Translations under genes and position numbers: made by a program
Notes under the pieces: model-generated
Seen by the model: only the letters and a program-made list of their open reading frames with translations
What the model was told of the DNA's origin: nothing
Databases searched by the model: none
Shown here: one piece after another, positions 1-64,000 of the stretch
Numbering within the stretch: position 1 is the first letter of the stretch
How the letters are laid out: the number at the start of each line of letters is the position of its first letter
Source of the DNA: Mytilus galloprovincialis
Taxonomy: Eukaryota; Mollusca; Bivalvia; Mytilida; Mytilidae
NCBI RefSeq assembly: GCF_965363235.1
Contig: NC_134849.1
Coordinates: forward strand, 57,493,122 to 57,557,121
Length of the DNA stretch: 64,000 nucleotides
Reading direction: 5' to 3'

Positions 1-2
1 CT

Positions 3-6893: not shown

Positions 6894-7009
6894 GTGGTTC
6901 CATTTCCAACATGTATGCACTTAACGTAGCTCGGTATCAACGATTTCCGGATTGCAAAACGAAGGGGATGCAAGCCCTACCTAAAATTTGTGTATTGGCC
7001 TCAGAGAAG
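6894..7009 (+). CDS. CSAD: CSAD-like exon a (GGSISNMYA segment)
   Basis: Acceptor tattccag, donor aag|gtagtc. It starts with the last two bases of a glycine codon and ends in phase 0. It encodes the small-domain/large-domain entry segment [20 protein letters not shown] and ends in SEK. Confidence 0.9.
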
Positions 7010-9554
7010 GTAGTCCATAGCAACAGTTACCATTTTTCTGTATTCTATATATTTTTGCCCATTTTTCACTAGTGTTTATATTTAAGCACCCCTTGATTTT
7101 CTATTCTTTTTTTACGGACCCGTTTTTCTCTATTCTGTATTTTTGTACCTATTATTCTATATTCTGTTAACCCCATCCAAACCCTCATAATACAAAAAAA
7201 TTCATATGAAACAATTTTTGCTAATGCATGTTATTACTTACCTACTTACTTACTTACTTACTTAGTCCTTGCTATGCCTTATGGCACAAAGGGCAAACAT
7301 GTATGTTCTGCTTGCATTTAAATTATATGCTGATATTAGAAATTTACATGTGTGTATATGGTTTTGATAATAACTAAGTGGTCCTACTAGTATATTTTTG
7401 TACCATGGAATTCAGTAGTCTGACAAACTGCAGGTGTTTTAACCCTCGTCCTATTGATGTCATCTTTACAACAAACCAGAAGCTTTATTATAAATGTTTT
7501 TGGACAGATAGTGCCAAAATTATGGATGATTATTCTAAATTCAAGAGAATTAAAAGAGTTTGAAACTTTTTATACGACCGCAAAAATTAAAAAAATTGTT
7601 GGTTGTATATTGGTATCACGTTGTCGTCAGCGTCGTCCAAGACAGATGGTTTCCGGATAATAACTTTAGTATAAGTAAATAGAAATCAATAAAATTTCAA
7701 CACAAGGTTTATAACCACTAAAGGAAGATTGGGATTGATTTTGGGGGTTATTGTCCCAACTGTTTAGGAATTAGGGACCAAAAAAGGGGCCCAAATAAGC
7801 ATTTTTGTAGTTTCCAGACAATAACTTGTGTTAAAGTGTATGAATCTCTCTGAAATTATACCACAAGTTTCCATACAACAAAGGGATGTTTATGATTGAC
7901 TATGGGGGTTATGGCTCAAACCATTTAGGAATTAGAGGGAAAAAAGGGGGAAAACAAGTTTTTTTTTCTGGTTAAAGGACAATTAAGACAATTTAAAAGC
8001 AGTCTAAGGGAGGTTATTCAATTCCAATTTAAAACAACAATGTTTGATTACCTCCCTTACACTGCTTGTAAATTATGTATTAAGAAATGATGATTGTCTT
8101 GAGGTGATTAGCTGTCAATTTATTTTTAAAAGTTACTATTAATTAATGACTATGTATGTCATTTTATATTTTAAGACTGTATTTAAAAGGGTAATTATGG
8201 TTGCTAACTTTATTAGAAATTTGAATTCAGATTTTGACTATATCTTGAGGGAATGAATTTTTTTTTGGAATAAGGGAAAGGGGTAGGTGAAAAAAAATTG
8301 TGGAGGGGGGGGATACAAATTTGTGGGGGGGGGGGGGGGGGTGGGGGACTATTTGTTCTCATTTCAGATTTCAGAAATTAAAAAGAAGATTTCTTCAAAT
8401 ATTTTTTTTGGGGGGTTAATATTCAACAGGATAGTGTATTGCACAAAAGCAAAAAAATTAATATAAATTCAAATCATATAACCAATTTTTAAGTTCTTTG
8501 ACTACAGTTATTCTGTGGCAGAAACCTATTATGTGTCAAATGTTAATTACAATCCAAATTCAACCTGTATCAAACGTGAATATTGTGTCCATTTTTGCCC
8601 TAACTTTTCAGGGTTCGATATCTGCGGTCGTATCCAGCTGCGCTCAGCAAAGCAATTTATTATTGAATATTATAAAACTTCACATTGAAATACAAATTTT
8701 TAATTGGTTGATAAGAGGGAGATATTATATACACTATAATCATTCACTGAGACGCTTGATCATTTGTGCACTTAATTGAATATGGATGGTTGTTATTTAC
8801 ATGATGTCATCGTTTATGACTTTGAATTTGAAATTTAAGAGACAATGGTAACACAAATTTCATTATAATGAATTAAATAACTCATGGCTGAGAGATGATA
8901 GAGCAGATTGTTACCCTTTGAAAAAACATGGTCAACTCACTGGGCTTCGCTTTGGTTGAAAAAGTTTTCTCAGGGTAACAATTTGCAGATTCATTCCTTT
9001 ACTGTTAGAAATAATAGTTTATGACTAAACTTTAAGAAGACTGAAAGAAAACAATGTACAAGATATTTTTATCGAAACCTGCAGATATTTAGACAATATA
9101 CAATGGCTTTTCCAGGATAGGGCGTAGTGGGTGCACTCCCATGATGCATCTTTTGATCTTGCAAAAGAGATAAATCACATGTTTCTTACAATTTATATGA
9201 ATTTCTTAGCATTAAATGGCTTAAAAATTTGTTTGCTTTGCTCTGCTCGCAAGAATCTATTACTTTTTTTTAGGAAAATACGCCCCCTTTTAAAAATCCT
9301 GGATTTGTCTTTGATATGTTCTATGTAAACAGTCAGAAATACTAATTAAACAATTGATTTCAGGATCACTTCTTTTATTAATTTGAATCTCGGTAACTTA
9401 TTAAAGTGATTTTGACGTTTCATTTGAACTTCAAATACAAATTTCATGAATTTCCCCCTAATAACAATTGTTCCTCAATTAATTTTTATATAACATGTGC
9501 TAAGATACCAAAATCATATGCAATTATGCTCTATTGCTTTACTTATACCCCACA

Positions 9555-9591
<37 letters not shown>

Positions 9592-12500
9592 TGTCTGTCC
9601 GTCCGTCCGTCCATCCGTCAGTCCGTCAGTCGGTCAGTCCTGTTTCTTGTCATCGCAACTCCTCTCAAACCACACAACAGAATTTCACGAAACCTTTTTA
9701 GATAATAAGGACATACTATGTAGTTGTGCATATCGACAGGAAATTACGATTCAATTTTTTTTCTAGGTGTTACGCCCCTTTAAACTTATTTACCTTTATG
9801 TACTACTGCAACAGTTTGTCATCTCAACTCCTCTGAAACCACACAACAGAATTTCATGAAACTTTGTGGATAATAAGGACATACTACGTAGATGTGCATA
9901 TCAACAGGAAATTACGATTCATTTTTTTCCAGGAATTACGCCCCTTTGAACTTATTTGCTTCAATGTACTTCTGCAACCTTTTGTCATCGCAACTCCTTT
10001 CAAACAACACAACAGAATTTCATGAAACTTTTTCAGATAATAGGGACATACTATGAAGATGTGCATATTGACAGGAAATTATGATTCAATTATTTTTTCT
10101 TGCACATATTTTATTTCTCTAATGACAATGTGGGGACGTGGGGTATGTGAGCGCACTCACTAAGGTTCTTCAATTTTATATAAAAACAAACATATTCAAA
10201 GTTGTTAATTGTGTTTTCATTATATTTTATTGGGTATTTACTTTCATGAATTTTGAAGGAATATGTTTCAATTCAGCAATTTTCACATTTCTGATAGGTT
10301 TTTGGGCAGAATTTAAAAAAAACATAAATAAAGTTTTTCTTCAATTTTTTAATCCAGGAAAATTGGTACCAACATGAAACAAACGAATCTAGAATAAATG
10401 AAAAGTTATTAAAACTTGTTAAATAAACCTATTTTAAGTATATATAAAGAAAAAGAAATATATATTTCAAAAGTTAGACATCTGTGTGTAAAACATATAA
10501 AATTTGTATTTGATATGTTTGTCAGACAAAATTTGGCCATTTTACTAGATGTGCGTTTAAATTTAATATCAATCTCATTTAATTATACAGAGTTTTATTC
10601 TCACAACATTGAAATCTAAAACCAAATGAACACAAATAGTATAAAAGAGAAGCAAAAGATACCAAAAGGACAAACTCATTAGTCGGGAAAAAAACTGACA
10701 ATGCCACGGTAAAAATCGAAAAACAATCAAAAGAAAAGCAACAGTATACAAAACTCAAATTGGAAACAAGACTGAACAACACGAACACCACTAAAAACCA
10801 AGTATGATCTCAGGTGCTTAGGAAGGGTAGCAGATCCTGCTCCACATATGGCACCCATATTTTTATATAAGTAACACATTAAACATCAGATTTGTATTAC
10901 TGAAGATATTTTATTTCTTTTACAGGCACATTATTCAGTCAAGAAAGGGGCAGGATTTCTAGGTATTGGTATGGACAATGTTCTACCTATTCAAACAGAT
11001 GATCAGGGTAGGATGTGTCCTAAAGCACTGGAAGAAACTATACAAGACTGTATATCCAAGGTATTTGTCCCTATAGACATATGATATAAGATGTGTTCTA
11101 AATATGCAAGATATTTCATAAAGTATGTAAGATATTTCATAAAGTATGTAAGATATTACATAAATTTCGATTATGACGTCAAATTTTCTTGCTTTCCTCT
11201 GAAATTCCTATTGTGTCGTCATGAAAAAATGCGACCATGCCTAATGTTGTCACGTAGAAAGAACACATCTTTTTTTATAGGTTGTTCAAAACTAAGGATT
11301 AAAATTGTCTGCATATGGTATAAAAATCATTAGAGAAACAGATTCTACCACCAAATCTCGTGCAATAGGATATTTATCAAATCTCGACAGTTAAATTTTA
11401 AATATTTAAAACGCTTGGCAAGCCTCGCGTTTTGAATTTGAAAATTTAACTGTCTCGAGTTGATAAATATTGCATCACACTCGATGCAGTGGTAGAATCT
11501 ATGTATATATGAAATCTTATATTTTTATATGATATCTTATAAAAATATATAAGATAATATGAAACATAATTAAAGATATAATCTTTGTAAGACATATTAC
11601 AAAAAAAAAAAAAATAGAAAATGGCTTTTAAACATGATTGAGTATACATTTTACTTCCCGAGGGTTTCACCAGCATATAAGCCAGTACCAAAATGAAAAT
11701 ATAGATATTGTGTTATAAAAGTTTGCTGTTAATTTTTATCTCCATCATGCATAGCTCTAACTCCTTGCCTGACTTTGGCTATACTTTTTGTACTGTTTGA
11801 TTAATATAAGCTCTTAATTTTTTTAATTAGTTTTAAATTTTCAAATAATTTGGCCTCGAGCATCAATGAAAAGACATTCATTTTAGAAATGCCCGTCTGG
11901 TGGATTAAAATTAGTAAGTTAATATTATTGAACAAATATGAATATGGAAGCCATATTAGAAAAGTCAATTTAAAATGGAAAAAAGTATGGTTTTACATCT
12001 TAGGATTGGCATTTGTAGACTTTTCTTATTCTCTACTCTTTCATCATTTTCCTGTTTGCTTTACAGGGTATAGTACCATACATGGTCAACGCAACATCAT
12101 TTTCCTATTTGCTTTACAGGGTATAGTACCATACATGGTCAATGCAACATCATTTTCCTATTTGCTTTACAGGGTATAGTACCATACATGGTCAATGCAA
12201 CATCATTTTCCTATTTGATTTACAGGGGATTGTACCATACATGGTCAATGCAACATCATTTTCCTTTTTGATTTACAGGGGATTGTACCATACATTGTCA
12301 ACGCAACATCATTTTCCTATTTGATTTACAGGGGATTGTACCATACATGGTCAATGCAACATCATTTTCCTATTTGATTTACAGGGGATTGTACCATACA
12401 TTGTCAACGCAACATCATTTTCCTATTTGATTTACAGGGGATTGTACCATACATTGTCAACGCAACATCATTTTCCTATTTGATTTACAGGGGATTGTAC

Positions 12501-15500
12501 CATACATGGTCAACGCAACATCATTTTCCTATTTGATTTACAGGGGATTGTACTATACATGGTCAACGCAACATCATTTTCCTATTTGATTTACAGGGGA
12601 TTGTACCATACATGGTCAACGCAACATCATTTTCCTATTTGATTTACAGGGCATAGTACCATACATGGTCAATGCAACATCATTTTCCTGTTTGCTTTAC
12701 AGGGGATTGTACCATACATGGTCAACGCAACATCATTTTCCTATTTGATTTACAGGGGATTGTACCATACATGGTCAACGCAACATCATTTTCCTATTTG
12801 ATTTACAGGGCATAGTACCATACATGGTCAATGCAACATCATTTTCCTATTTGATTTACAGGGCATAGTACCATACATGGTCAATGCAACATCATTTTCC
12901 TGTTTGCTTTACAGGGGATTGTATCATACATGGTCAATGCAACATCATTTTCATATTTGATTTACAGGGCATAGTACCATACATGGTCAATGCAACATCA
13001 TTTCCTGTTTGCTTTACAGGGGATTGTACCATACATGGTCAATGCAACATCATTTTCCTATTTGATTATAGGGGATTGTACCATACATGGTCAATGCAAC
13101 ATCATTTTCCTATTTGATTTACAGGGGATTGTACCATACATGGTCAATGTAACATCATTTTCCTATTTGATTTACAGGGGATTGTACCATACATGGTCAA
13201 TGCAACATCATTTTCATATTTGATTTACAGGGCATAGTACCATACATGGCCAATTCAACATCATTTTCCTGTTTGATTTACAGGGGATTGTACCATACAT
13301 GGTCAATGCAACATCATTTTCCTATTTGATTTACAGGGGATTGTACCATACATGGTCAATGTAACATCATTTTCCTATTTGATTTACAGGGGATTGTACC
13401 ATACATTGTCAATGCAACTTCAGGTTCTACTGTACTTGGAGCATATGACCCCCTGGAAGCTATAGCCGACATCTGTGAGAAATACAAAATTTGGATGCAT
13501 GTAGATGGAGCATGGGGAGCAGGTTGCCTGTTGTCACGGAAGTATAAGGGGTTCATGAAGGGAATTGAAAGGTAAATACTGTGTTAATAAGAGTTATGGG
13601 AGTTTGACATTATTGAATTGATACAAGTAAATTGATGAGTTCTTTACTTTGAGAATTACTGATGTATTATTCTGCATTGTTGGAACCAAAGTTGTTTTCT
13701 TTTGCAAAAAAAGTATGGAAATACTGCTTTAGGCCATTATAAAAGAATTCCTAAATTCTCACTCATTGAATTTTTATTTAAATTGGTGCTGGGTTTGGGG
13801 GGGGGGATTATTTTGTGTCTGTTTTTCGTGAAAAAATGAAAGAAAATAGCAAAAAATCAAAACACTTTTTTTTAGCTCACCTGGCACAAAGGGCCATTAG
13901 TGAGCTTTTGTCATCACTTAGTGTCCCTTGTCCGTCGTTGTTAACTTTTACAAAAATCTTCTCCTCTGAAACTACTGTGACAAATTTAACTAAACTTGTA
14001 TATAGTTTAAAATGGCTGACATGACTAAAAATAGAACAAAATGGTAAAATGCAAGTTTTGTCTATTATTTTGAAAACTGTTATAAATATAGAAAATCAGA
14101 CAAGGCAAAAATGTTCAGAATGTTGAGCTCTACTTATTTTCCATATTCATCAAAACTGTCAGACAACTTCTAAAAGAGTTATTGCCCTTAAATGACAAAT
14201 TTTACTATTTGTTTTCATTTTTGCCTATCATCTTGAAAACTATGATAGAGAAAGAGAGAAACTTTAAATTGCAAGAATGATCAGCAAGACAAATAATGGT
14301 CAAAATCGTCAGTCAACTCCTTATTAGAGTTTATATTGCCCTTAATTGACGATTTTTATACGACCGCAAAAAAATATTTACGGTCGTATATTGGTATGGT
14401 GTTGGCGTCGTCGTCGTCCAAAGACACATTGGTTTTCGCACTATAACTTTAGTTTAAGTAAATAGAAATCTATGAAATTTAAACACAAGGTTTATGACCA
14501 CAAAAGGAAGGTTGGGATTGATTTTGGGAGTTTTGGTCCCAACAGTTTAGGAATTAGGGGCCAAAAAAGGGCCCAAATAAGCATTTTTCTTGGTTTTCAC
14601 AAATTTAACTTTAGTATAAGTAAATAGAAATCTATGAAATTTAAACACTAGTATAAGTAAATAGAAATCTATGAAATTTAAACACAAGGTTTATGACCAT
14701 AAAAGGAAGGTTGGGATTGATTTTGGGAGTTTTGGTCCCAACAGTTTAGGAATAAGGGGCACAAAGGGTCCAGAATTAAACTTTGTTTGATTCATCAAAA
14801 TCAAATAATTGGGGTTCTTTGATATGCCGAACCTAACCGTGTATGTAGATTCTTAAATTTTGGTCCCGTTTTCAAATTGGTCTACATTAAGGTCTAAAAG
14901 GGTCCAAAATTAAACTTAGTTTAATTTTAACAAAAATTGAATTCTTGGGGTTCTTTGATATGGTGAATCTAAACATGTACTTAGATTTTTGATTATGGGC
15001 CCAGTTTTCAAGTTGGTCCAAATCTGGGTCTAAAATTAAACTTTGTTTGATTATAACAAAAATTGAATCCTTGGGGTTCTTTGATATGCTGAATCTAAAC
15101 ATGTATTAAGATTTTTGATTATAGGCCCAGTTTTCAAGTTGGTCCAAATCGGGGTCAAAAATTAAACTTTGTTTGAATTCTACAAAAATTGAATCCTTGT
15201 GGTTCTTAGATATGCTGAATCTAAACATTTATTTAGATTTTTGATTATAGGCCCAGTTTTCAAGTTGGTCCAAATCGGGGTCCAAAATTAAACTTTTGTT
15301 TGAATTCAACACAAATTGAATATATGGGGTTCTTTGATATATGCTGAATCTAACAATGTATTTAGATTTTTGATATTTGGGCCAGGTTATCAAATTGGTC
15401 CACATTGAGGTCTAAAGGGTCAAAAATTGAACTTTATTTGATTTCATCAAAAATTGAATTCATGGGGTTCTTTGATATGCTGAATCTAACCATGTATTTA

Positions 15501-18500
15501 GATTTTGGATATTGGACCATAATAGGTAAATGTCCAATTTAAAAATTTTAAGTTTTTAAGTTTAAGTTCTTAGACCACATTCATTCTGTGTCAGAAACCT
15601 ATGTTGTGTCAACTATTTAATCACAATCCAAATTCAGAGCTGTATCAAGCTTGAATGTTGTGTCCATACTTGCCCTAGACTTGCTACAATTCCCTTTCTA
15701 TTATTTCTCTCTTACTAATTTATATGTTTACTGATAAGTGCCAGCCTACTGATTGCCCTTGGAGAAAGGCCTTCCTCCTGCAGATGTCAGTATAATTATA
15801 ATCGCCTAGTTATAGCAGTAAAATTATTAAAGGGGCAAAATTGAAAAAAAGAACAAAAAAACATAATTAGGAAGGGACATGTAGCAAGTCTATACTGCAA
15901 CTGTTCAGGGTTCGACCTCTGCGGTAGTATAAAGCTGCGCCCTGCAGAGCATCTGGTAACCAATTGTTTGTGTTTTTAACTTATATCTAAAAAATTATAA
16001 TAGATAGATAGAAACGCAAATGAGCAAAAATGACCAGCAAGACAAGATTTATAATTTATACAATTTGGAAGAAATCGTCTGACGACTCCTTATTGGAGTT
16101 AGTGCCTTTAAATGAGAATTTTTACCATTTTTTTTTGTGTTTTGGCTTATATGATAAAAATTATAATAGACAAATAGACACTTTAGATCACAAAAATGAT
16201 CAGCAAGGCAAGATCTACTAACAACTCAATTTTTTCCGATATAGTTAGTAGACTGTCACTCTTTATAGGAGTAATTGCCCTTAAATGAGGATTTATTTAT
16301 CATCTTGAAAACTAAAGAAGATAGAGAGAAACTAAACAGACTAAATGAACAGTAATACAAGACCAACATAACAGAAATTTTTGTCATGAATACTATTCTC
16401 GTCTACAATGTTGAAGAGTGTCCTTTGTTAAATATGCACATAGACAAAGGTGAGCGACACAGGCTCCTTAGAGCCTCTAGTTTTAGCTCTGAAAAAAAAA
16501 CAAAAAAACAATTGGGTATGGATTTTTTTAGAATTTTTAATGTGCCGTTTGTGTGACTTCCAAAAAAGCTGTGTATGACTCCTATAGGTAAAGCTCATTG
16601 AATAGAATAGAAGCCTAAATCATAAAAAAACACTTCTTGTCACTTGATATATATTCTCTAAGCCCATTAAAAGTTTACTGTAAAATATGAAGAGACAGTC
16701 AAGACCAATATCTACAGAAGAAACACACTAGACAAGAGATGAAAAAAAAAACTTTTTGAAATCAGGGGTTTACTTAGCCAAAGATTTTTTATATATAAAC
16801 CTGCTGTATTTGTATGCACCAGTCCTAAGTCAGGAGCACCTGGTGTCAAGTGGTTGTCGATTGTTGGTGTGGTTCATAAGTGTTTTTCATTTTTTCCGTT
16901 TTTTATATAGATTAGACCGTTGGTTTTCCAGTTTGAATTGTTTTACACTAGTCATTTTGGTGTGCTTTATAGCTTGCTGTTCTGTGTGAGCCAAGGCTCT
17001 GTGTTGAAGGCCGTACTTTGTTCTATAATTGTTAACTTTTTATACATAGTGACGTGGATGGAGAGTTGTCTCATTGGCACTCATACCACATCTTCTTATT
17101 TACATCACTTAATAATATTTGAACTATTTTGTTTAAAGACTATTTCATTCCTCTATATTGCTGACAAAGTATGAATGAATTTTATTTTTAATTAACTACA
17201 AATTACATACATGTAGTAACAGAGATTATATTTATAAACAAGTCTAAATTGAAAACAACGTTCAAACCTATGATTGCGTTGGATGAAAACCGCAATTTTT
17301 ATACGTGTGCATGCAAAACAAATTTCTTGGTAGAGGGGTCTAAATACAGAACAAACAACATTTTCCAAAAGACCAAAAAAGTGATATGAACAATTACATT
17401 AAATATTAAAGCATTGTTTGTTTATTTTACAGGGCAGACTCTTTAACATGGAATCCCCATAAATTGATGGGAACAAATTTACAAGCTTCAGTTTTCCTTA
17501 CAAAACATAAGGTAAGAATTGGATATTCGTTGAAACATCTTTTTAACTAATTGGCCAGTGTGAGTTATAGGCTATTTCTGGAGTCGTGTCTTTCACCGGA
17601 AAAGATCGTCAATTATGCACGCCTTTATGACGTCATTTACCAGATAGAAGGCGCCTGTATCCCTGCTATATTAAGGTTTCAAGCACTTTCAGAATCATCA
17701 TTCTGCAGGGTAGTATAGAAATAATTTATGTTCTGTAAGTATTTAATCTTAATTCCTGTACTAATGAAGGGAGGGGGACCAACTTATTAGATTTTAATTT
17801 CCCAAATATTTTGTGCAGTATAAAATTAAACTTTTTCACCCGTTCGCTCAACATGTGTTGGAAGTGATGATGCTTTTACATTTTGGTCACATGGTGATGG
17901 AAGTCACATGACAGATTCAACTAAATACCATATCCCAGAACTGGCATATTGGAATCACTTGGAGTCCTTGGAGTCCATCTTTGTCTGTCAACTTCTTAAT
18001 TTTTTAAATAATTCTCTGGGGACGTCAGTGGCCAAATGGTCTTAGTAGTCGAACAACTTTATCACTCACCTATCAACACTGAGGTTATGAGTTTGAATCC
18101 CGCATGTGGTTTTTAAGACTCCAATCTTAATTGATTAGGATTGTCAGTTTTTCTACAGAAGGTCTGTTTTTCTCTCCAGGCACTCTGTCTCCCTCCACCA
18201 ATAAAAACTGACCGTCACGAAATTGCACAATAGTGCTGATAGTGGTGTTAAACACCAATCAATCAATCTAATACTACTGAGCCCATTTGAAACTACAATG
18301 GTCTGTTATCCTTAAGTTATCTAGTTTAAAAAAATGGTTAAAAATGTTATATATTGAACAAATCTGATGTGATAAAAATGCATGGATTGCAACTTGCAAA
18401 TTATCACCTATAATCAATCAATTGTATTAATCAATATTTATAAATTTTATCTTGACTTTCAGACAGTCCTGTTAGATGCCCACTCAGCTAAGGCGAAGTA

Positions 18501-21500
18501 TTTGTTTCAACAAGATAAATTCTATGATGTTTCCTATGACACGGGAGACAAATCAATACAGTGTGGACGTAAAGTGGATGCTCTGAAGGTCTGGACCATG
18601 TGGAAAGCTAAAGGTGATGCTGGACTGGAGGAAGACATTGATAATTTATTTTCCTGTTCAAGGTATGGCATATGTCAAGTAGGAGGGTATGAATGCCCTT
18701 TACCGTCAGACGTCATATGGTCATTTTCGGCTACCTTTAGCTTCAAATTGGTTAGCATTTTGATGATATATGTCTTGACTGTATTTTAGCACACAAAAGA
18801 TTCTCTTCATGGTCACATGTAAAAACTTCATAATTACCATCGTCATCTAAGTGTTCTCTGGTATAACTTGGAGCAAGTTTAAGTTGGTAGACTCCAACAG
18901 TAATATTTCTTATATCTTCTTCTGATAATCGGGGAAAAGAAGGGGCGGATGAAGCATCAATCTTTTGCCATTTACAAGAACGTTTGTCAAGGCCTTCCTC
19001 TATTATTTTCTCATGAAGTAAGTTTTTTTGCTTTGAAAGATAAAGCATTTTAGACGCCAATTGTTCATCTTGCTCTGAGTCCCCTGTATTAAGTTCTGGC
19101 CAATATTTGTTCATGATTGCAAAGGCAATGTTGACATAATCAGACACAAATGGAATTTGGCTATTTGGTAGAACTCTATCTAGATATTTCCACGATTTAA
19201 TGCGGCCATTAACGGACTCTACCACCCAACGGATTTTCGTAACAAGTCTTGTTACGTTGCTGTCTTCAACTGGAAGTTGAGACTCCCCTTTTTTATTAAA
19301 AGCTGGCATTTTTGTTTGAATACCCATTTCTTGCAGTAAGTCAAGTGCATCTCTAAAACCACGGTCAACAATCATAATATCATCCTCAGCCACCCATTTC
19401 TTAAATTCTTCAATGTCATGTTGGATGATGTGCTTCATTATTTGTGCATCGTTGTTTTTTCCGTCGCTATAGTAAGGTCCAATTACACTTATAATGTAAC
19501 CAGAAGTTGTTACAAAGACCATTGGTTTAACCAGTGGTCGATGTTTGTGCATGCTATAACATTTACGTTGGAACTTGAATTGTGAACTTTTCTGGATATA
19601 GATATAAGTGCCATCTGCTACTATAATTTCTGGATACATTCCTTTTCCGAACAGTGATTGCGCTAGAGGTCGAGTATGCGATGTTATAACCTCTTCCCTA
19701 CTTATATGATTAAATCCAAGATTAGATGGAACAAAATTTTCAGACAAGTATTTTCTAGCTGATGCAATAGCACGTCTTACAGAATCTTTACCAAGATTAA
19801 AAAGTGTTGAAAGTTTATTTGATAAACCGGACTTCAATTTGGTTAGAAATATTCCGATACAAGTCCGGACACTACGAGTCCAAGAATCCCGTAAATTACC
19901 CTTTTGGACAATTGAACATAGGTCATTAAAGTTTTCCTTAGAAAGGCCAGTAAGATTTAAAATGTCTGAGCTTGTAAGGGCATTTTCTGTGTCAAAGTCA
20001 ATTCGCCGCTTGCTTCCTCTCAAGGCCATATCTCGGATTTGCGTAATAAGGTCCATTAAATCAGTACGGTTAAAAATGGACGAGGACTGCGAATGCGAAA
20101 TTCTGTCAAGTGCATCAGGTAAAAATATTTCATTGCACAAGTGTCCTGGACAACATCTGGCACCAACTGTGAGTATAATGAGTTTATCTAAAAAGATATT
20201 AAATCTAGCGTTTGTTGGGACAACTACTAGCTTTGGGCCTCGGCGTTTACACACAACACACTGCGAGTGGCCACCTCCAGCTGATGGTATAGGCAGTGCG
20301 ATACTAGGTGGAGATTTACATGGATGGCATCTGGCATACTTTGCTGGAGGGACGTACTCCGTGTCATCATTAATTGATTCAGATATTGTAGTTTGTATTG
20401 GGCATCTTGCATTTGTGTCAATTTCTCGAGAGCATCGTATTCTGCATTTATTACATATTACACTGTTAGCGTGATTAATTTTGTCATGTTCAATGAAAAA
20501 CTTCTGTTGTAAACATTTACGTAGTGATTTATTGTTGGGTCCAATAAGTTTCCGCCTGTCTCTGGTTTTTGGTCTTTTTGAACACAAAATGCAAGTAAAG
20601 TTTCTTGGGGTTGACATTCTCTGAAAATTAGAAATAGAAATTGTTAAACACTTAGCACGAGGTAAATCAGAATAAAATAAAGAATATCCAAAGTGTGATT
20701 TAAAATTGAGACTATCAAAGTGCGTACGTTTTTTGGTGTGTTTATTTGTCTGCGCACCATGTGTGTTTTCTTTTTTTTTTGTTAATTTACATGTCAATTC
20801 CTTCACGAAATATCAGTTTTGAAAACCCTGTTTGCCCATACTTAATTATCGTTTTACGTTTACAGCTGATTTCCTAATGCTTGTAGAATAATACTTTGGA
20901 TGGCTACAAACATTTGATCAAGCTTTGTAATAACAATTGGCATCTTCAAACAATATATACTCCGGCATAGTTAAACATGTATATATTATATTTACATTTG
21001 ATTGGAGGCTATCCCAATTACAATTTTATACAATATACAAAGAAAACAAACAAGCTTACCGAAGTCTTGCTCTACATGTATTAGGAAATTAGCTGTAAAC
21101 GGAACCTACTGACAAAAGTTCATGTCAGTATCAAAATCACGGATAGTTAATAATAATAAATAAATACTCTTCACTCTTCACATATTAGATATACAGCATA
21201 AAACATGGATTCAAAGACATAACAAATAAACATTTATAGGACAGCAACCCCCACCCATATAACAAAACACAAACAAAAAGCCGTACATTGACCTATAATG
21301 GTCTACTTTTTTAAATTGTTATTTGGATGGAGAGTTGTCTCATTGGCACTCACATCACATCTTTCTATATCTAAACAGAGGGAAACATATAATATTCAAC
21401 AAAATAATTCTACTCAATATTAAAAACTCTTAAGTCTTTTCGAAATGTAAATAATGCATGCTCTCATCAAAATACGTTTACCATAATTACTAGAAGTTAA

Positions 21501-24500: not shown

Positions 24501-27500
24501 AAAGATATAAATGTACAGTGAGGAATGTGCATTTCAACCATCTTGTTTTTCGTATCTTATGCCTGTGTGAAAATATTATTTTACTTTGAAACTGCTTGTG
24601 TGTTTACCAAATTTTAAGAAGAAAGTATAGAATAATATATTGGTATTGATGCAATATTTTAACTCGTTCGGAATACTCAACGATCTAGGTACATTTACAG
24701 TTAGAGGAATACTAGTAAAAATATTAACTAATGTTTTTTTTACTAAAAAAATCTACTTGAAATATTTGACATGTACCATATCCTTGTTATGCTAAGAACT
24801 TATATGAGTAATGTAATTTATGTGTAATTAGGTCTTTCCACTTTTCTGTGGAAAGACCTATTGTTTTTCTTCTGATTATTTTTTTTTTTTTTTTTTTCTT
24901 CCGCCTAATTTTGTTCTTGCGATAAACATTTGTTTCGCAATATGTCGCTTAGATATTTGGTATATGATATCGAACAGTTTATGCGCTTTTGAAATTTACC
25001 CTGCGTAAACGAATACTTTTCTTTGTAGGAGTTATCTCCCCAAACACTGTTTTCCTTGTTAGCGCATCTCCTTCGCAACCGTAAAATATTATGACAAATT
25101 TATTTTACAAAATTGCTCGTTATATCCTTCGCATGATTTGTCCTATTTTGACCGAAGTGATATGAACGCTCCATATGAGAGTTATTTCCCCTTATGCATT
25201 TGATATAAGTGATATGCATTTCTATCTTGTAAACCATAAGTGCTAAAGACCAAGGATCTTTTGATTTGAGGTCCTTTGTCCAAAAAAATAAAAATTAGGT
25301 CAAGGTCAAAGGTCAAGGTCATATTCCAATTTTTTGAATTTGGCTTATTTCCACTAATTTCCAGAAACTGTATAAGATATCGACAAATTATTTTTTCTAA
25401 ATTGTTAGTTGCGACATGTCGTAACACGTAAATTTTGATTGCAAGGGTACGTTGAACGTAAAAGTGAGTTTTCTCCCCTCTTGTATTTAAAAATACGTGT
25501 ATGGTGATTTAACTGATTAACCAAATATAATTAAGTCCTATGGTCTTTTGATTTGAGGTCCTTGGTTTATGACCTTGAAATTGATCTCAAGGTCATAGAT
25601 TAATTTGACGTTCTAGTTTTTGACCTTTGCTCTCAGCTCATATTTATACATGATATATCCATGAGACTTTTGGCGAAAGGTATCAAACCATTTAACCTTT
25701 AAAAAAACAACCGGAAGTGACCTTGTGTAAACCGGAAGTAGCTATTTTTGTACTTTATTAATAAAAAAGTATATAGAACCAGATCTTTTTGGAATCAGTG
25801 TCAATTAAATATTCAAATATTATCGGTGGTAACATTTTTCAAACCGAAAGTAACAAATTATCTCCCTTATTTAAAAAATATTGTATAGAAACCATATATT
25901 TCTGGAATCAGCGTACAATAACCTATCAGTTGACGATTGAAATGACATTTTAAACTTAATTTTACAACTTTCATATTAAAATACATTGTTTTCAGTGGAA
26001 AGACCTTCAATTGTTCTCTGAACAATTGGTTTTTAATTTTAGAAGTTTTTCTTTACAGGTACCTTACACAGTTAGCTAAGGCAAGAGATGGGTTTAAAAT
26101 GGTACAAGAAGTGAGTTAATGATTATTTTATTAAAATGGAAATTCACACCTAAATACAGTGGATTCATTTATTTTCATGGGTACCAATTTTCGTGGATTA
26201 AGGAAAACTTGCATTTTCTTGGATATTTAATTTTACTGTTTTGCAAAAGTTTGCATACATTCCAGTAATTCATTAAACATTTATATTCGTGGTTCCCATG
26301 TGACCACGAAATGCATGAAAATTGGTATCCAACAAATAATTATAAATTCACAGTGAATATAGAAATATCTTTTTAATTTATACCTAGTTTAGCATAACTA
26401 ACACTTATACTTTCTCTGTGCATTACCTTCTATGCTACACATTGCTTGACTGAGTCTATACATATTTGGGGGTCTGGATGGAGCGACCAGATTAGAGAGT
26501 ATAGGGGGGGAAAGAATAGCAATAAATGTACAAAAAAACAAGGAACAGAGTAATGTGGTTCTGTTAAATACAGAAAAATTGCCTGAAGATTAAAGAATAC
26601 CCCTCCCCCTTTTCCAAAAAAAAACCAACCAACATACATTATTATACATGTGAGTCTTTTTTAAATCAGAAATGAGTTATATGCACTCAGATTTTTTTTG
26701 GTCATTTAGACTTCAGCTAGTCTTTAGTACAAAATTTTTATTTAAATCTCTTGTTTCTACATGCACAAATGTATACATACTATTTCAGCCCCAGTGTACA
26801 AATGTGTGTTTTTGGTATATACCTAAGAGACTGAGAGGAAAACCTGAGACAGAGGAATGGTGGGAACAGATTGGAAAGGTGAGTGTATCTTTTTATTAGT
26901 CCCCTACCGATGAAGTCGAAGGGGACTTAAGGTTTGCATTCCGTCTGTCTGTCTGTCTGTCCATCCGTCAGGTCGGCAAATCAGTTTTCCACACTTTTTT
27001 TCTTCATGCTTGAAGATATTAATTTGATATTTGGTGTATTGTTTTATCATGAAAAATTACAGATCACGTTCAAATTGTGTTCCGGTCTGGTGATTTTGTG
27101 CAGAGTTATTGTCCTTTGACTTAGAAAATTCACTAAAATAACCAGTTTTCTGCACTTTTTTTTTGTCATTCTTGAAGATATTGATTTCATAATTGATATT
27201 TAGTTTTATCATGACAAGTTTAAGTTTAAGTTTGAATTTTGTTTTGGTCTGATGATTTTGTGCAGAGTTATGGTCCTTGGACTTAGAAAATTCACTCAAA
27301 TAATCAGTTTTCTGCACTTTTTTTTCGTCATGCTTGAAGATATTGATCTGAAAATTGGGATACAGTTTTATCATGACAAATTACAGATCAAGTTCGAATT
27401 TTGTTCCGGTCTGATGATTTTGTGCAGAGTTATGGTCCTTAGACTTAAAAAATTCACTTAAATAATTCAACACTTTTTTGTCATGCTTGAAGATATTGAC

Positions 27501-28247
27501 TTGATATTTGTTATATAGCTAACACCATGACAAGTTATAGATCAAGTTAGAATTTTGTTCCAATACAATGATTGTTTTACCAGTAGGGGACTATGTATTG
27601 CCATGCAATACTCACAGAATGCTTGTTTCTATGTACATTAAAATCTGGGTCTCGGTTGACATCACCAAAAGGGACTTAATTTTGCATGTTTTGTGTAGAA
27701 AAAAAAATCATTCAATTGTTTCAAATAAATATTACTAAAAGTTAATAGCTTAATATACTGTCTGTCTGAATAATTCAAAGTTATTTATAATTGATCAGGA
27801 AAAACTCTCAGAAGGACTGTATTATATTGCTTTCTTATGAAATAAAATTTATCTTGTGGGGAGGGGGGAATTGGAGGCACTAAAATTAATTACATATGGT
27901 TGTTTCCATTTTCCTTACAATTTTGTAAGAATTTTAGGTAAAATGATTTTTTTTTTAAATATGGGTTGTCAGGGTCTTAAGTAAGTGCCTTCAATTCTCC
28001 CCTCCTTTGCATTTAAATCTGGAACAGACCTAATGATAAATATTTAAAAAGTATTTTGTTTACATTATTCAAGGTTGCTCCTGTAATCAAACAGAGAATG
28101 GTGGAAAAAGGAACACTTTTGATTGGTTATCAGCCTGATGGTGAACTTGTGAACTTCTTCAGAATGGTTTTTGCCAATAACGCAGTAACGAAGAGTGATG
28201 TTGAATTCATAGTTGATGAAATTGACAGATTAGGCTGTGATTTATAG
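6894..28247 (+). CDS. CSAD: Cysteine sulfinate decarboxylase / GADL1-like acidic amino acid decarboxylase (3' eight exons)
   Basis: Eight exons join in frame: 6894-7009, 10926-11060, 13390-13571, 17433-17511, 18463-18662, 26059-26110, 26789-26878, 28074-28247. All junctions are GT-AG, and split codons at 13571/17433 and 18662/26059 both rebuild AGG (Arg). The visible 341 residues cover the C-terminal two thirds of a group II PLP decarboxylase (family length about 500). Landmarks are GGSISNMYA, the HVDGAWG motif whose Asp contacts the PLP ring, the WNPHK motif whose Lys binds PLP, and [18 protein letters not shown]. The match is closer to CSAD/GADL1 than to GAD65/67 (for example FQQDKFYDV and [10 protein letters not shown]). 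It would decarboxylate cysteine sulfinate to hypotaurine, and/or aspartate to beta-alanine, in the cytosol; taurine is a major osmolyte in marine bivalves. The N-terminal ~150 residues lie left of the window, and the retrotransposon sits in that upstream intron. No frame break is seen. A paralogue lies on the - strand at the right edge. Confidence 0.92.
7060..7200. repeat. T-rich 'ttctattctgtattttt' interspersed repeat
   Basis: Phrases such as ttctctattctgtatttt, followed by 'ccccatccaaaccc', recur at about 53640-53830 and 60130-60300. Probably a short dispersed repeat; no coding signal. Confidence 0.45.
7237..7266. repeat. (actt)n microsatellite
   Basis: About seven tetranucleotide units of 'ctta' in intron a/b. 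Confidence 0.85.
7571..8660. repeat. Interspersed repeat with 'atacgaccgca...tgcggtcgtat' ends
   Basis: Starts tttatacgaccgcaaaaatt and ends near ctgcggtcgtatccagctgcg, so the ends are inverted repeats of atacgaccgca. Phrases such as 'ataactttagt...ataagtaaatagaaat' and 'aggaattaggg(g/a)ccaaaaa' are shared with 14345-15950. A run of about 18 G lies at 8324-8341. Non-coding. Confidence 0.7.
9541..10146. repeat. Interspersed repeat with about three tandem ~170-bp units
   Basis: Starts 'taccccacacaacgagttg', has a (gtcc/gtca)n stretch at 9590-9645, then three units beginning 'gtcat(c/t)(g/t)caactcct' near 9648, 9820 and 9984. Each unit carries 'cacaacagaatttca(t/c)gaaac' and 'ataataaggacatacta'. 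It ends 'gacgtggggtatgtgagcgc'. Non-coding. Confidence 0.75.
10625..10862. repeat. Dispersed bivalve-type repeat ('acaatgccacgg')
   Basis: A-rich segment with 'aaaggacaaactcattagt', 'actgacaatgccacgg' and 'tcctgctccacatatggcac', which I recognise as a common dispersed mussel repeat. It lies just before the acceptor of exon b. Recognition is from memory. Confidence 0.5.
10926..11060 (+). CDS. CSAD: CSAD-like exon b (AHYSVKKG segment)
   Basis: Acceptor ttttacag, donor aag|gtattt. Phase 0 at both ends, 45 codons. The His of AHYS is the residue that stacks on the PLP ring in this family. Confidence 0.92.
11341..11499. repeat. Foldback (MITE-like) hairpin of about 160 bp
   Basis: Left arm 'gattctaccacc...ggatatttatcaaatctcgacagttaaatttt' (given in parts) is matched by the reverse complement 'aaaatttaactgtctcgag', 'ttgataaatatt' and 'ggtagaatc' on the right. 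The centre holds 'aaaacgc...gcgtttt'. Confidence 0.75.
12042..13422 (+). repeat. 53-bp tandem repeat spanning the intron/exon c junction (26 units)
   Basis: Each unit is about 20 nt of pyrimidine-rich intron end (ttttcctatttgatttacag), then the first 33 nt of exon c (gggattgtaccatacatggt, then caatgcaacatca). The AG of each unit falls near 12065, 12118, 12171, 12225, 12278, 12331, 12384, 12437, 12490, 12543, 12596, 12649, 12702, 12755, 12808, 12861, 12914, 12967, 13019, 13071, 13124, 13177, 13230, 13283, 13336 and 13389. The last unit is the real exon. Two sequence classes alternate after the AG: 'gggattgta' and 'gg(c/t)atagta'; the pyrimidine tract also varies ('tttgctttacag' or 'tttgatttacag'). 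All units keep an AG (one reads attatag). Confidence 0.97.
13390..13571 (+). CDS. CSAD: CSAD-like exon c ([12 protein letters not shown] to HVDGAWG)
   Basis: The acceptor is the last of 26 tandem acceptors. It is the true one because only here does the frame continue past NATS into [16 protein letters not shown]. The donor is gaaag|gtaaat. It contains the PLP-binding Asp (HVDGAWGAG). The residue count between LEETIQ in exon b and this exon matches the human enzyme exactly, so no exon is missing between them. Confidence 0.92.
13874..16486. repeat. 'agctcacctgg...gagcctctag' repeat, split by a nested 'acgaccgc' element
   Basis: Starts 'tagctcacctggcacaaagg' and ends 'gtgagcgacacaggctcc...gagcctctag', which are mutual inverted-repeat-like ends. 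Inside it, about 14345-15950, lies a second repeat opening 'atacgaccgcaaaaa' and closing 'tctgcggtagtataaagctg', the same family as 7571-8660. This is a repeat-in-repeat insertion. Confidence 0.7.
14760..15530. repeat. Tandem units of about 120-130 bp inside the nested repeat
   Basis: About six units, each with 'aattaaactt(t/a)gttt', 'aaaattgaat', 'ggggttctttgatatgc', 'gaatctaaacatgta' and 'ttcaagttggtcca'. Divergence between units suggests an old array. Non-coding. Confidence 0.8.
16756..17105. repeat. Dispersed repeat ending 'gttgtctcattggcactcat'
   Basis: The end 'gatggagagttgtctcattg' then 'gcactcataccacatctt' recurs at 21330-21370, 30302-30337 and (inverted) 44262-44305. It is one of the most common mussel repeats in my memory. 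It carries no intact coding region. Confidence 0.7.
17433..17511 (+). CDS. CSAD: CSAD-like exon d (PLP lysine exon)
   Basis: Acceptor tattttacag, donor aag|gtaaga. It encodes [17 protein letters not shown]; the Lys of NPHK forms the Schiff base with pyridoxal phosphate. Confidence 0.93.
18012..18270 (+). repeat. tRNA-derived SINE (bivalve V-SINE type)
   Basis: The head has a pol III A-box-like 'gtggccaaatgg' and a B-box-like 'gagtttgaatcccgc'. The body has 'ttgtcagtttttctac', 'ctccaccaataaaaactg' and 'ccgtcacgaaattgc'. The tail is 'gttaaacaccaatcaatcaatc', a short tandem tail. The order of tRNA head, conserved centre and repeat tail fits the V-SINE group described in bivalves (family named from memory). 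Confidence 0.75.
18463..18662 (+). CDS. CSAD: CSAD-like exon e ([18 protein letters not shown])
   Basis: Acceptor gactttcag, donor caag|gtatgg. It encodes the signature stretch around [11 protein letters not shown] and [11 protein letters not shown]. The donor lies only 4 bp before sequence that resembles a transposon end (see 18667). Confidence 0.93.
18667..18694. repeat. Candidate left terminal inverted repeat of the transposase element
   Basis: 'ggcatatg', 7 nt, 'ggagggtatgaat' matches the reverse complement of 23250-23275 ('ggcacatg', 5 nt, 'ggagggtatgaat'). The 13-bp block is identical. The element would then be about 4.6 kb (18667 to about 23277) and contain the transposase gene. No clear target-site duplication was found. 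Confidence 0.5.
18752..20617 (-). CDS. DDE_Tnp_4-type transposase (Harbinger/ISL2EU-like)
   Basis: I place the start at the ATG at 20617 (MSTPRNFTC). The frame is open to 20806, but an intron-like acceptor 'tctaattttcag' sits just before this ATG, so the extra 63 residues are probably not coding. Numbering from 20806: Cys-rich N-terminus with CxxC pairs (72/75, 118/121, 183/186) and a CCPGHLC motif near 218-224; HTH_Tnp_4-like segment ([13 protein letters not shown], 285-297); and a DDE nuclease with D398 (VADGTY), D481 (IVDRGFRD) and E530 ([12 protein letters not shown]). About 621 residues, no internal stop, all three catalytic residues present. It would cut and paste its element. It lies antisense in intron e/f of the decarboxylase gene, its stop only 90 bp from exon e. 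A domesticated gene is possible but not shown. Confidence 0.88.
   Translation of the reverse strand: MSTPRNFTCILCSKRPKTRDRRKLIGPNNKSLRKCLQQKFFIEHDKINHANSVICNKCRIRCSREIDTNARCPIQTTISESINDDTEYVPPAKYARCHPCKSPPSIALPIPSAGGGHSQCVVCKRRGPKLVVVPTNARFNIFLDKLIILTVGARCCPGHLCNEIFLPDALDRISHSQSSSIFNRTDLMDLITQIRDMALRGSKRRIDFDTENALTSSDILNLTGLSKENFNDLCSIVQKGNLRDSWTRSVRTCIGIFLTKLKSGLSNKLSTLFNLGKDSVRRAIASARKYLSENFVPSNLGFNHISREEVITSHTRPLAQSLFGKGMYPEIIVADGTYIYIQKSSQFKFQRKCYSMHKHRPLVKPMVFVTTSGYIISVIGPYYSDGKNNDAQIMKHIIQHDIEEFKKWVAEDDIMIVDRGFRDALDLLQEMGIQTKMPAFNKKGESQLPVEDSNVTRLVTKIRWVVESVNGRIKSWKYLDRVLPNSQIPFVSDYVNIAFAIMNKYWPELNTGDSEQDEQLASKMLYLSKQKNLLHEKIIEEGLDKRSCKWQKIDASSAPSFPRLSEEDIRNITVGVYQLKLAPSYTREHLDDDGNYEVFTCDHEENLLCAKIQSRHISSKC
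20807..23249. other. Transposon/intron DNA 5' of the transposase gene, mostly non-coding
   Basis: Contains a 'gttgtctcattggcactcac' repeat fragment (21239-21375), a poly-A stretch with a tRNA-like remnant (22115-22204) and AT-rich DNA. No convincing second ORF such as a YqaJ-type nuclease was found. Confidence 0.5.
22139..22204 (-). pseudogene. tRNA-Ser-like remnant (tRNA pseudogene or SINE head)
   Basis: On the - strand 'gcagcgatggccgtgaggat' followed by 'aaggtcgtta' resembles the acceptor/D arm of a eukaryotic tRNA-Ser, and 'gatcgaatctcg' resembles the T-arm/B box. The 3' acceptor strand is missing and a run of about 24 T follows, a strong pol III stop. Not a functional tRNA. Confidence 0.45.
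23250..23363. repeat. Inverted repeat of transposon-end sequence
   Basis: 'attcataccctccgcaggca'-'tgtgcc' (23250-23275) and 'ggcacatgcctgtggagggt'-'acgaat' (23338-23363) are near-perfect reverse complements separated by about 62 bp. The left arm is the candidate right end of the transposase element; the right arm may be the start of a second, related element. Confidence 0.8.
24006..24280. repeat. Dispersed repeat 'atgccctacctt...gggcacattcttg'
   Basis: Begins 'tatgccctaccttagatagt', has the (gttc)n-rich 'ctgttcgttcgttctt', and ends 'ggggcatccttgtacaaagg'. The layout resembles the repeats at 9541 and 26906. Non-coding. Confidence 0.55.
24829..26030. repeat. 'taggtctttccac...gtggaaagacct' interspersed repeat
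   Basis: The left end holds its own small hairpin ('aggtctttccacttttctgt' then 'ggaaagacct') and the right end repeats 'cagtggaaagacctt', giving inverted ends. A diverged, shorter relative lies at 43333-43860 ('taggtctttcctctttgacg', 'tgtcgcttagat', 'ttggtatatgatatcg'). It ends just before the acceptor of exon f. Confidence 0.65.
26059..26110 (+). CDS. CSAD: CSAD-like exon f (52-bp mini-exon)
   Basis: Acceptor ctttacag, donor gaa|gtgagt. It completes the split Arg codon and encodes [17 protein letters not shown], matching the RYLVEEMKKREGF-type helix of the family. It is too short to be found by ORF scanning. Confidence 0.88.
26155..26360. repeat. MITE-like element with 'ggattcattta/ccacgaaa' inverted ends
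   Basis: 'gtaccaattttcgtgg' on the left pairs with 'ccacgaaatgcatgaaaatt'-'ggtatcc' on the right, and the outer ends 'gtggattcatttatt' and 'aattataaattcac' also pair. About 200 bp, in intron f/g. Confidence 0.65.
26789..26878 (+). CDS. CSAD: CSAD-like exon g (TNVCFWYIP)
   Basis: Acceptor ctatttcag, donor aag|gtgagt. 30 codons, including [18 protein letters not shown], a conserved strand of the C-terminal domain. The - strand paralogue at 63785-63874 matches at 28 of 30 residues. Confidence 0.93.
26902..27600. repeat. 'tcccctaccgatgaagtcg' repeat with about four ~155-bp tandem units
   Basis: Begins 'agtcccctaccgatgaagtc', a (ctgt)n run, then units with 'gcactttttttt', 'gtcatgcttgaagatatt', 'tatcatgacaa(g/a)tt' and 'ttttgtgcagagttatg'. 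It ends 'accagtaggggac'. It lies in intron g/h; the paralogue's matching intron instead holds another repeat family. Confidence 0.75.
28074..28247 (+). CDS. CSAD: CSAD-like terminal exon
   Basis: Acceptor tattcaag, stop tag at 28245-28247. 57 residues from [14 protein letters not shown] to EIDRLGCDL, the usual family C-terminus. The paralogue at 62591-62764 matches at 52 of 57 residues. Confidence 0.94.
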   Translation, partial: VAPVIKQRMVEKGTLLIGYQPDGELVNFFRMVFANNAVTKSDVEFIVDEIDRLGCDL

Positions 28248-42808: not shown

Positions 42809-42826
42809 CCACTATTACTATATGGA

Positions 42827-44420: not shown

Positions 44421-46189
44421 AATGTAAATCCATTACAACGGGAAAACCAACGATCTAGTTTATATATATATATATATCAACGAGAAACACTTATGAACCA
44501 CATCAACACACGACAACTACTGAATATCAGGTTCCTAATGTTCATTATTTTTATGTACTTTTACACACAAATGTATGCATCTATTGGATATTGTCATGAC
44601 CGTGGTGTAATGTTTACTGCCTTTTTAAAACTTAAACTGGAAATTGATTTGCAAATTTACTTTTACAATAAAATTAACACAATACGTCTTTTAAACTTAG
44701 TTTTACTGTACGTATTGTTGTGTGCTTCTAAAACTCCGCCGCTTGAATGAAGAAGATTTTCGCAGGGCGGACAATGCATGCATAGAAGGAGACGCTTACC
44801 CTCCCGTCGCACCCGTTCTTGGTTCTCATGGATTTCATGCTATTCTCTAAGGTTCACTCAAAAGTCTTACCAAGGTTTCCCAGTTTTTTAAATCGGTTTA
44901 AAACTCAGTTTTAGTTTGTGACCGGGATTTTGTTTGCTTAATTGATGTATGACTATTGAACAGTGGTATACTACTGTTTCCTCTGTTTACTGTGCGTATT
45001 GCTGTGCGTTTAATCATTCCGCCGCTTGAACTAAGGTATGTTGCCTTGACGCGAGTGGTGCATTGCCAGAGACGCTTACCCTCCCGGCGCACCCGTTATT
45101 GGTTCTCATGGCGTTCATGCTATTCTCTACGGTTCACTCAAAAGTCTCACCTTGATTTGTGTTTTCTTGGTCGATTTCCAAGATTTATAATCGGTTTGAA
45201 TCTGAGATTTATGTTTTGACTCGGATTTGTTTTCGCTTAAACGATGTATGACTATTGAACAGCGGTATGCTACTGTTGCCTTAACTTACTGTGAGTATTG
45301 CTGTGTATTTGTTCATTCCGCCGCTTGAATGTATGTATGTTGCCTGGAGCAGATCTACGCAAGGCGGGTGGCGAATGCAATGCAAGAGCTGCTTACCCTG
45401 TCAAAGCAGCCGGTCTTGCTATTAAGAAGTTCATGCGATTCCCTCAGGTCAAATGTCTTACATTGATTTGCGTTTTCTTGATCGATTTCCAGGATTTTGA
45501 AATCTACTCTACTGTTGCCTTAGTTCATCAGATGTATAGGACCAAAGGATTCATATCCTTGCACAACAAGCAATTTATGCCCTGTATGTGAGATTGTCTG
45601 CATGTGATGCCGCTTGTAAGGAAAGTGAAACGGTCACTGCACGCTCAGAAACCTTGACAGTTCAGTAGGTAGTTTGTTGGAAGGTAACCTTTCTATCCAT
45701 ACCCTACAAACCTTCATTCAAACGACGGTTGAAACTACTGTCCTTTATCCGGGTAGATCAATTGCAGAATATACTTTTTTGATTTGTTATCATTTTCCCC
45801 TGTCCTAATTAAGCATGATGATGTGATACTAAACGTAAACAATCAACAATAAGTCAATCAAAAAAAATAACTTTTATTTTTAATCTAGATATTTGAACAA
45901 TTGTGGTTTGTAAATTTTTTTTTAATAACATTGTTTCCTTCTGTCATTTATATCATTATACAATTACTATCTGTAATACAGTGAGGACATTCGTAATATA
46001 GTTTCATTAAAACGAAAGTAATGACAAGGTATTTTACACATTTTATTAATGATTGTAAAGGTTAAGCATTTTATAATTTTGGACGAAAATTCAGTAATTT
46101 TCAAAGTGCATAGATTACGTTAAATATATATTGTACAGTTATAGAGCAGAAGATCCCATCTTAAAGACTTAATCACAAGGCTATAATAA

Positions 46190-62590: not shown

Positions 62591-64000
62591 CTATAAATCA
62601 CAGCCTAATCTGTCTATTTCATCAATAATGAATTCAACATCACTTTTCGTAACTGCATTATTGGAAAAAATCATTCTGAAAAAGTTCACAAGGTCACCAT
62701 CAGGCTGATAACCAATCAAAAGTGTTCCCTTTTCCACCATTTTCTGTTTGATAACAGGAGCAACCTTGAAAAATATAAACAAATCAGTTTTAAATAGATG
62801 ATAATAATTTAACATAAGAATTGTTCCAGATGTAATTGTAAAGAAGGGGTGAAAAAAATGCACTTATTTAAGACCCTGACAACCCATATTAAAAGAAAAT
62901 TAGGGAATGTATCCAGGGGACACAAATGATGCCCTAGCTTGCATATAATATTACAAAGGGACATAACTCCAGAACTGTAAAAGTGACACTACCCAAATTT
63001 GTACTTCTTCTGAATTTTGTGGTAGCAAGTATTGTGTATATGTTTCATATCATTTCAATAGTTGAGGCAAACTTAAGTTAGAGAATGGAAATGTAATCTT
63101 TAGCAATATCTTTATTTATTAAGGGGCATAACTCAAGAACGGTAAAAGCAATGCAACCAAATTCAAATTTGGTCTTTTTTTAAGGTAATAAGCATTGTGT
63201 ATAAGTTTCAACATTTTTGGAAGAAGCAAAGTAAAGTAAACGGAAAAGAAACAAGAAATTCAGCCATTTTTCTATTTGTAAAGGGGCATAACTCTACCAT
63301 GGTAAAAGTGATGCTACAAAATTTAAACTTGGTCTGTGTAATTTTTGTTTAAGTTTTATAACATTCAGTTGCGGCAAACTAAAGTGAAAATTCTTACAAA
63401 CTTCTATTGTATAAAGGAATTCGAAGATGAAAACAACAACATTTGAGCTTCGTCAGATAGAAATGGACCTTATACAATTTCAAGTACACATAAATATGAT
63501 AAAAAAATGTGGGCCTATTTTGTAGGGTTTAATAACAACTACATTTTTCAAATAGTTACAGACTTTGCTTAGAGAGTTTGTCAATTGTCAACCCGAAATA
63601 AGTTAGCAGATACATGTATTGATATCTATTTGCATAAGACCATTTTCAATCCGACGCAGCTCATTTAATTTTCTTGAGTGCCTCCCAGCCCCCCTTTCTT
63701 TAAGTTTTTGAACAGCCCCTTTATCATAAAATATAGGATCTGTTCTATTTTTAGACAGTTCAAATAAAATTGAGATACACCTACCTTTCCGACCTGCTCC
63801 CACCATTCCTCTGTTTCAGGTTTTCCTCTCAATCTCTCAGGTATATACCAAAAACACACATTAGTACACTGGGGCTGAAATAGTATGTATACATTTGTAC
63901 ATATAGAATCAAGAGATTTTAATAATAATTCTGTACCAAAGAATCAATTATGAAAAAAAATCTAAGTGTATATAACTCATTCACTTTCATGTTCAATGTT
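62591..64000 (-). CDS. CSAD: Second CSAD/GADL1-like decarboxylase (last two exons; continues right)
   Basis: Exons 63874-63785 (acceptor ctatttcag, donor aag|gtaggt) and 62764-62591 (acceptor tttttcaag, stop at 62591). The first encodes [18 protein letters not shown] and the second [14 protein letters not shown] to EIDRLGCDL. Exon lengths (90 and 174 bp) and phases equal those of exons g and h of the + strand gene; 80 of 87 residues are identical, with conservative differences (K/E, I/V, R/K, E/D, V/I, A/S). The intron sequence before the acceptor is also alike ('acaaatgtatacatactatt'), so the pair arose by DNA duplication, not retroposition. The catalytic exons are beyond the right edge. Confidence 0.92.
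62765..63784. repeat. Intron with 'aaggggcataactc' repeat, about three ~165-bp units
   Basis: 'gggacataactccagaactg', 'ggggcataactcaagaacgg' and 'ggggcataactctaccatgg' each start a unit with 'taaaagtgatgcta(c/a)' (62956, 63122, 63281). The corresponding intron of the + strand gene holds a different repeat (26902-27600), so both insertions postdate the duplication. Confidence 0.75.

Follow-up and report, generated by a model that had tools for sequence, protein, structure and literature searches.

How does the splicing machinery settle on one 3' splice site when an intron ends in 26 near-identical copies of it? This question is raised by a gene for a cysteine sulfinic acid decarboxylase (CSAD)-like protein in the mussel Mytilus galloprovincialis, situated in a stretch of 64,000 nucleotides (assembly GCF_965363235.1, contig NC_134849.1, positions 57,493,122 to 57,557,121 of the forward strand; hereafter the window), where a minisatellite with a 53-bp unit lies across the junction between intron b/c and exon c. 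The reading that we favour, with moderate confidence, is that this is a minisatellite of the type termed "mirage" in amphioxus, grown by slippage and unequal exchange and mostly silent in splicing.

A search of the window with Tandem Repeats Finder gave 12042-13422 as one tandem array with a period of 53, 26.1 copies and 94% matches, and its span breaks down into 24 units with a length of 53 bp, two that are 1 bp shorter and a 5-bp terminal copy (24 x 53 + 2 x 52 + 5 = 1381 bp). All 26 acceptor AGs are intact, ending at 12066, 12119 and so on to 13389, with a spacing of 53 in 23 of the 25 intervals and 52 in two. The 17-mer core of the unit, GTACCATACATGGTCAA, when allowed up to three mismatches, has 26 matches in the window, all inside the array, compared with 0.27 expected in shuffles. 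The 26-unit array over a splice junction that the original prediction had placed here is thereby borne out, and blastn of 12000-13580 against the window gave no match beyond 11900-13600 and hence no sign of a second such array. The array and its landmarks are:

12042..13422, + strand: minisatellite spanning the 3' end of intron b/c and the start of exon c, in 26 units followed by the 5-bp terminal copy CTTCA
12042..12046, + strand: CATCA at the left edge of the array; with CTTCA at 13418-13422, a likely 5-bp seed of the first duplication
12043..12066, + strand: acceptor of unit 1; the unique intron directly upstream has the branch-point-like TTCAT (CTTTCATCATTTTCC), by consensus a putative branch point
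13366..13389, + strand: true acceptor of exon c, in unit 26; among the 26, it alone preserves the frame

Each unit consists of 20 nt of intron end (TTTTCC...ACAG; 19 nt in units 19 and 20) followed by 33 nt of exon start. The earlier description of the unit as exactly these two parts holds overall, except for the last 5 nt of the exon part, CATCA in 25 units and CTTCA in the real exon c, which can be assigned to either side because CATCA likewise stands in the intron at the array's left edge; 28 of the 33 nt are unambiguously exonic. An inverted repeat with a 2-nt loop, ACCATACATGGT, is present in 19 of the 26 units. In eight units (1, 2, 3, 12, 15, 16, 18 and 23) a second AG ends 7 nt past the acceptor AG, possibly a close tandem acceptor, giving 34 AGs in the array (26 acceptor and 8 second ones); the last unit has no second AG.

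As to origin, a 53-bp stretch across the splice junction, composed of the last 20 nt of the intron and the first 33 nt of exon c, would have been duplicated by slippage between two CATCA 5-mers formerly 53 bp apart, a seeding that requires exon c to have had ACA, not ACT, for threonine at the time, and slippage together with unequal exchange would then have expanded it to 26 units.

The host gene was located by tblastn on the + strand as eight exons, a-h, read in frame with GT/AG boundaries:

6894..7009, + strand: exon a, the first one found in the window
10926..11060, + strand: exon b
13390..13571, + strand: exon c, its first 33 nt being the exon part of unit 26
17433..17511, + strand: exon d, containing NPHK, presumably the lysine motif for pyridoxal phosphate (PLP)
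18463..18662, + strand: exon e
26059..26110, + strand: exon f
26789..26878, + strand: exon g
28074..28247, + strand: exon h, with the stop codon

Joined, these exons give a protein of 341 amino acids (aa) with a Pyridoxal_deC domain (PF00282, E 1.1e-80), whose closest relative is the Mytilus edulis cysteine sulfinic acid decarboxylase-like protein P0001 (96% identity over the whole query), and for exon c there are matches to glutamate and cysteine-sulfinate decarboxylases whose structures are known. By its sequence the gene is assigned to the CSAD/GAD group II PLP decarboxylases, and exons a-h appear intact. When the first 160 residues of P0001 were used as query, no exons before a were found in the window at E <=0.1; the sole match, a 35% stretch at 9167-9313 (E 0.077), was taken as chance because it lies downstream of exon a and so is out of order.

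Near the end of the window a second, inverted CSAD-like copy is represented by two exons, the others not being found within the window:

63785..63874, - strand: exon g of the inverted copy
62591..62764, - strand: exon h of the inverted copy

Comparison of exons g and h between the array-bearing and the inverted copy (87 codons) gave a synonymous divergence (dS) of 0.31 and a non-synonymous divergence (dN) of 0.034, dN/dS thus being 0.11. With no more than 7 replacement changes among 20, neutrality of one copy since the split has a P of 0.0009 to 0.0025. This argues for constraint on both copies over most of their history, for exons g and h only and in a test that a recent loss would escape.

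When exon b was joined to every acceptor in turn, all 25 upstream acceptors led to a premature stop, after 19 to 67 codons and 106 to 1445 nt short of where exon c ends, and the enzyme was obtained from unit 26 alone, where the junction reads through as in P0001. The stops traced earlier from the acceptors one, two and three units upstream agree with this joining, and the claim that only the last acceptor gives the enzyme now extends from those three to all 25. Transcripts joining an upstream unit would by general rules be expected to be degraded after their premature stop, and the effect of the array may be near-neutral. A translated repeat protein was ruled out, since the period shifts the frame and every upstream entry stops. 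No candidate for the 52-aa translation of the array was found in a protein-database search admitting proteins of about 29-91 aa, and no mis-spliced isoform in one admitting about 157-500 aa, a range outside which the 512- and 515-aa relatives fall.

Minisatellites over intron/exon boundaries have been described in amphioxus as "mirages", in BflGb6, BflGb9 and Adh3 (PMC3087553). Normal mRNA was reported for them, together with the view that the repeated signals could serve as cryptic sites (PMC3087553), and according to PMC3902484 no aberrant mRNAs are generated in the amphioxus Adh and troponin C cases. The mussel array shares two mirage features, in that its unit spans an intron/exon boundary and in that splice signals are contained in the copies with the authentic junction in terminal position. 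The arrangement is the same as in BflGb6: a tandemly repeated 3' intron end plus 5' part of the next exon, with many AGs kept and the authentic exon last. In amphioxus this architecture is found in globin, Adh and troponin C genes. The dimensions differ: the mussel has 26 units of 53 bp, the two BflGb6 haplotypes have 6 and 3, each 150-160 bp long, and the units of Adh3 measure 10-72 bp (PMC3087553). For the amphioxus mirages both RNA and length polymorphism have been studied, whereas the mussel locus is known from the DNA of one haplotype.

Three further systems resemble the mussel array in part. Lancelet PGBD5 likewise has tandem repeats overlapping splice sites in a conserved gene, with a copy number that differs between two genome sequence versions, but its repeats (2 or 7 of 60 bp, 3 or 6 of 108 bp) are imperfect and abut 5' splice sites (PMC3902484). 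In human duplicated genes, internal repeats at the exon-intron boundaries of recent paralogues can alter gene structure; they may form novel introns, of which the mussel array shows no evident case, and most intron modifications (66%) are accompanied by an alternative transcript (PMC2812944). A minisatellite of variable length within a mollusc gene is also found in the abalone TSSK1-like gene, where, unlike in the mussel, the unit is of 27 bp and placed in intron 3 and is not described as lying over a splice junction (PMC6905558). An RHD 37-bp junction duplication, considered as an analogue, was set aside after a literature search gave nothing on it. Among the papers listed in a literature search, with few subscription papers covered, no mollusc mirage was seen, which does not establish absence from print. 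The structure named in amphioxus is here extended to a mollusc and to 26 copies.

Donors and acceptors were scored with splice matrices not fitted to molluscs, and all scores below are to be read on that scale. The seven real donors of the gene score 4.55 to 12.34, compared with 3.24 for the top GT of the array. A donor-like GTATAG had been pointed out beside the acceptor in units 1-3; it is literally there, but with a score of 2.38 it is weak against the weakest real donor, and the GT of ATGGTCAAT, in 15 units, scores 2.42. Exonised, cassette or mutually exclusive units were rejected, as no unit has a donor of its own matching those of the gene. Recursive (ratchet) splicing uses an acceptor AG directly followed by a GT donor; this possibility was also rejected, since none of the 26 acceptors reads AG-GT and all read AG-GG. 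Folding of 941 nt of the array region gave no signal of an RNA structure hiding the upstream units (z -1.04; 4 of 20 shuffles fold equally well).

Since unit 26 is marked by its nearness to the real donor and not by its acceptor signal, we infer exon definition: the definition of exon c would start at the donor at 13571 and run back to the closest acceptor, that of unit 26, giving an exon of 182 nt, and the upstream units would mostly be skipped for that reason. Several observations weigh against such silence. The acceptor of unit 26 scores 5.78, and the same 20-nt signal is found in 14 upstream units, with 8 upstream units scoring higher and 3 lower, so the acceptor signal as scored appears to give the last unit no advantage. 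An exon starting at unit 25 would measure 235 nt and one starting at unit 24 288 nt; these are not odd sizes, and closeness to the donor is therefore not enough to rule these two units out. Unit 1 retains the unique upstream intron, with what may be a better branch-point-like motif, and it is transcribed before unit 26, as are the other upstream units. Splicing to the first acceptor, mixed use or some mis-splicing is thus possible. Further, the gene may be incomplete, given that no 5' exons turned up in the window.

When analysing the differences between units, 16 haplotypes were recognised over 12 variable sites, 10 of these classes being singletons. In mirages the edge units escape homogenisation (PMC3087553); in the mussel array the edge units 1 and 26 each form a single haplotype, as do 8 other units. 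Neighbouring units are more alike than in shuffles, of which (2000 in all) a fraction of 0.0275 was as low at lag 1 and 0.038 at lag 2, among eight lags examined; the fractions at lags 3 and 4 were 0.16 and 0.07, and nothing was seen at lags 5 to 8. Of the first 14 units 9 carry the variant AAC, of the last 12 none (p 0.0007, the split having been picked post hoc). For 7 of 10 pairs of common variable sites all four combinations are present, a sign of within-unit exchange or of changes that recurred. The likeness of neighbours, the clustering of AAC and the four-combination pairs are the grounds for local duplication with exchange as the mode of growth.

Among the 28 exonic nt, every site that varies in at least four units is a third codon position (4 of 4, hypergeometric p 0.006), while those varying in one or two units all lie in first or second positions (0 of 5 in third position, p 0.12 taken alone). 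The contrast between common and rare sites gives a Fisher value of 0.008, or 0.048 when exon position 30, which differs in the terminal (real) exon only, is added to the rare sites as one in third position. At sites 3 and 6 it is the same eight units that vary, so these two are not independent; when they are counted once, the common sites are 3 of 3 in third position (p 0.019 to 0.026) and the contrast becomes 0.018 or 0.048. The numbers are small, and the cut between common (at least four units) and rare (at most two) was fixed after the counts were known. Three of the four common third-position sites are synonymous and the fourth is Met/Ile, a site at which P0001 has Met and P0002 Ile. Unit types differ at 0.24-0.36 of their synonymous sites over 33 nt (two or three differences), a value near that for exons g and h of the two gene copies, whose raw synonymous difference is 0.25 (13 of 51.7). 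The shared variants thus appear to predate the units that carry them.

This third-position signature of the shared unit variants is a new observation here. As the common variants are all in third position and the rare ones never, the common ones probably arose in working, selected exons before they entered the array. It is conceivable, although we hold it only tentatively, that the array preserves the history of its exon like a fossil record, in which past synonymous states can be read and from which the exon can be rewritten. Unequal exchange at the end of exon c that is in use would then bud off new units, or else these would be copies of diverged alleles or of the inverted paralogue; shared variants would have passed through a selected coding state while later, private variants were unconstrained. 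The third-position pattern, the synonymous difference between unit types and the Met/Ile site speak for this reading. If the signature is also found in other animals, such arrays could be used as archives of past exon states.

An alternative to a mostly silent array, and one we consider unlikely, is a tunable poison array, as in the original prediction, in which the upstream acceptors are really used, the resulting transcripts are unproductive and the length of the array sets the output of enzyme. It would agree with the 26 of 26 intact AGs, with the eight upstream signals that outscore the last, with stops in all 25 upstream uses, each lying 106 nt or more ahead of the exon c end and with more exons to follow, and with the human paralogues, whose repeats at exon-intron boundaries often come with alternative transcripts (PMC2812944). 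However, a period not divisible by 3 yields stops without selection, the amphioxus relatives of the structure are reported with normal splicing, and the predicted aberrant peptide had no match in the two length bands of the protein database, a negative that weighs little since proteins from transcripts of this kind seldom reach the databases and the search was banded by length. CSAD is described as the key enzyme by which taurine is made, and taurine itself as probably an osmolyte in the oyster (PMC5511178), so that any effect on output could show in physiology. For the choice of the spliceosome among near-identical acceptors, whether the first seen, the strongest or the nearest to the donor, the locus is a sharp natural test.

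Somewhat less probable still is tolerated decay, by which this copy would be redundant with the inverted one and the array would be damage on the way to a pseudogene. The presence of a second copy at the window end is consistent with it, as is the fact that P0001 is closer in exon h to the inverted copy (98.3%) than to the array-bearing one (93.1%); a transposase frame in an intron, an element upstream of exon a that by eye looks Ty3-like, and the upstream exons not found in the window also fit. Against this, exons a-h are open with GT/AG boundaries, dN/dS in exons g and h is 0.11, and neutrality of one copy since the split is a poor fit, in tests to which a recent loss would be invisible.

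An inflation of one or few units to 26 by assembly error is very improbable, for although tandem arrays are often misassembled, and the draft array of amphioxus BflGb6 was judged aberrantly assembled (PMC3087553), the 16 unit haplotypes over 12 sites are spatially structured; the exact copy number could nevertheless be off.

Apart from the array and the two gene copies, the window contains some other elements. In intron e/f, at 18755-20812 on the - strand, an uninterrupted frame of 686 aa with a DDE_Tnp_4 domain (PF13359, E 3.3e-19) is possibly an intact DNA transposon, and upstream of exon a, at about 1-4576 on the + strand, the sequence has, judged by eye, the look of a Ty3-type retroelement polyprotein. 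A second strong tandem array, 27.7 copies of 20 bp with 95% matches, is located at 46186-46744, a little beyond the stop end of an open frame at 46791-48560 on the - strand. This frame (589 aa) and another at 41324-42811 on the same strand (495 aa) are related, and by eye both have a TRIM-type zinc-finger look.

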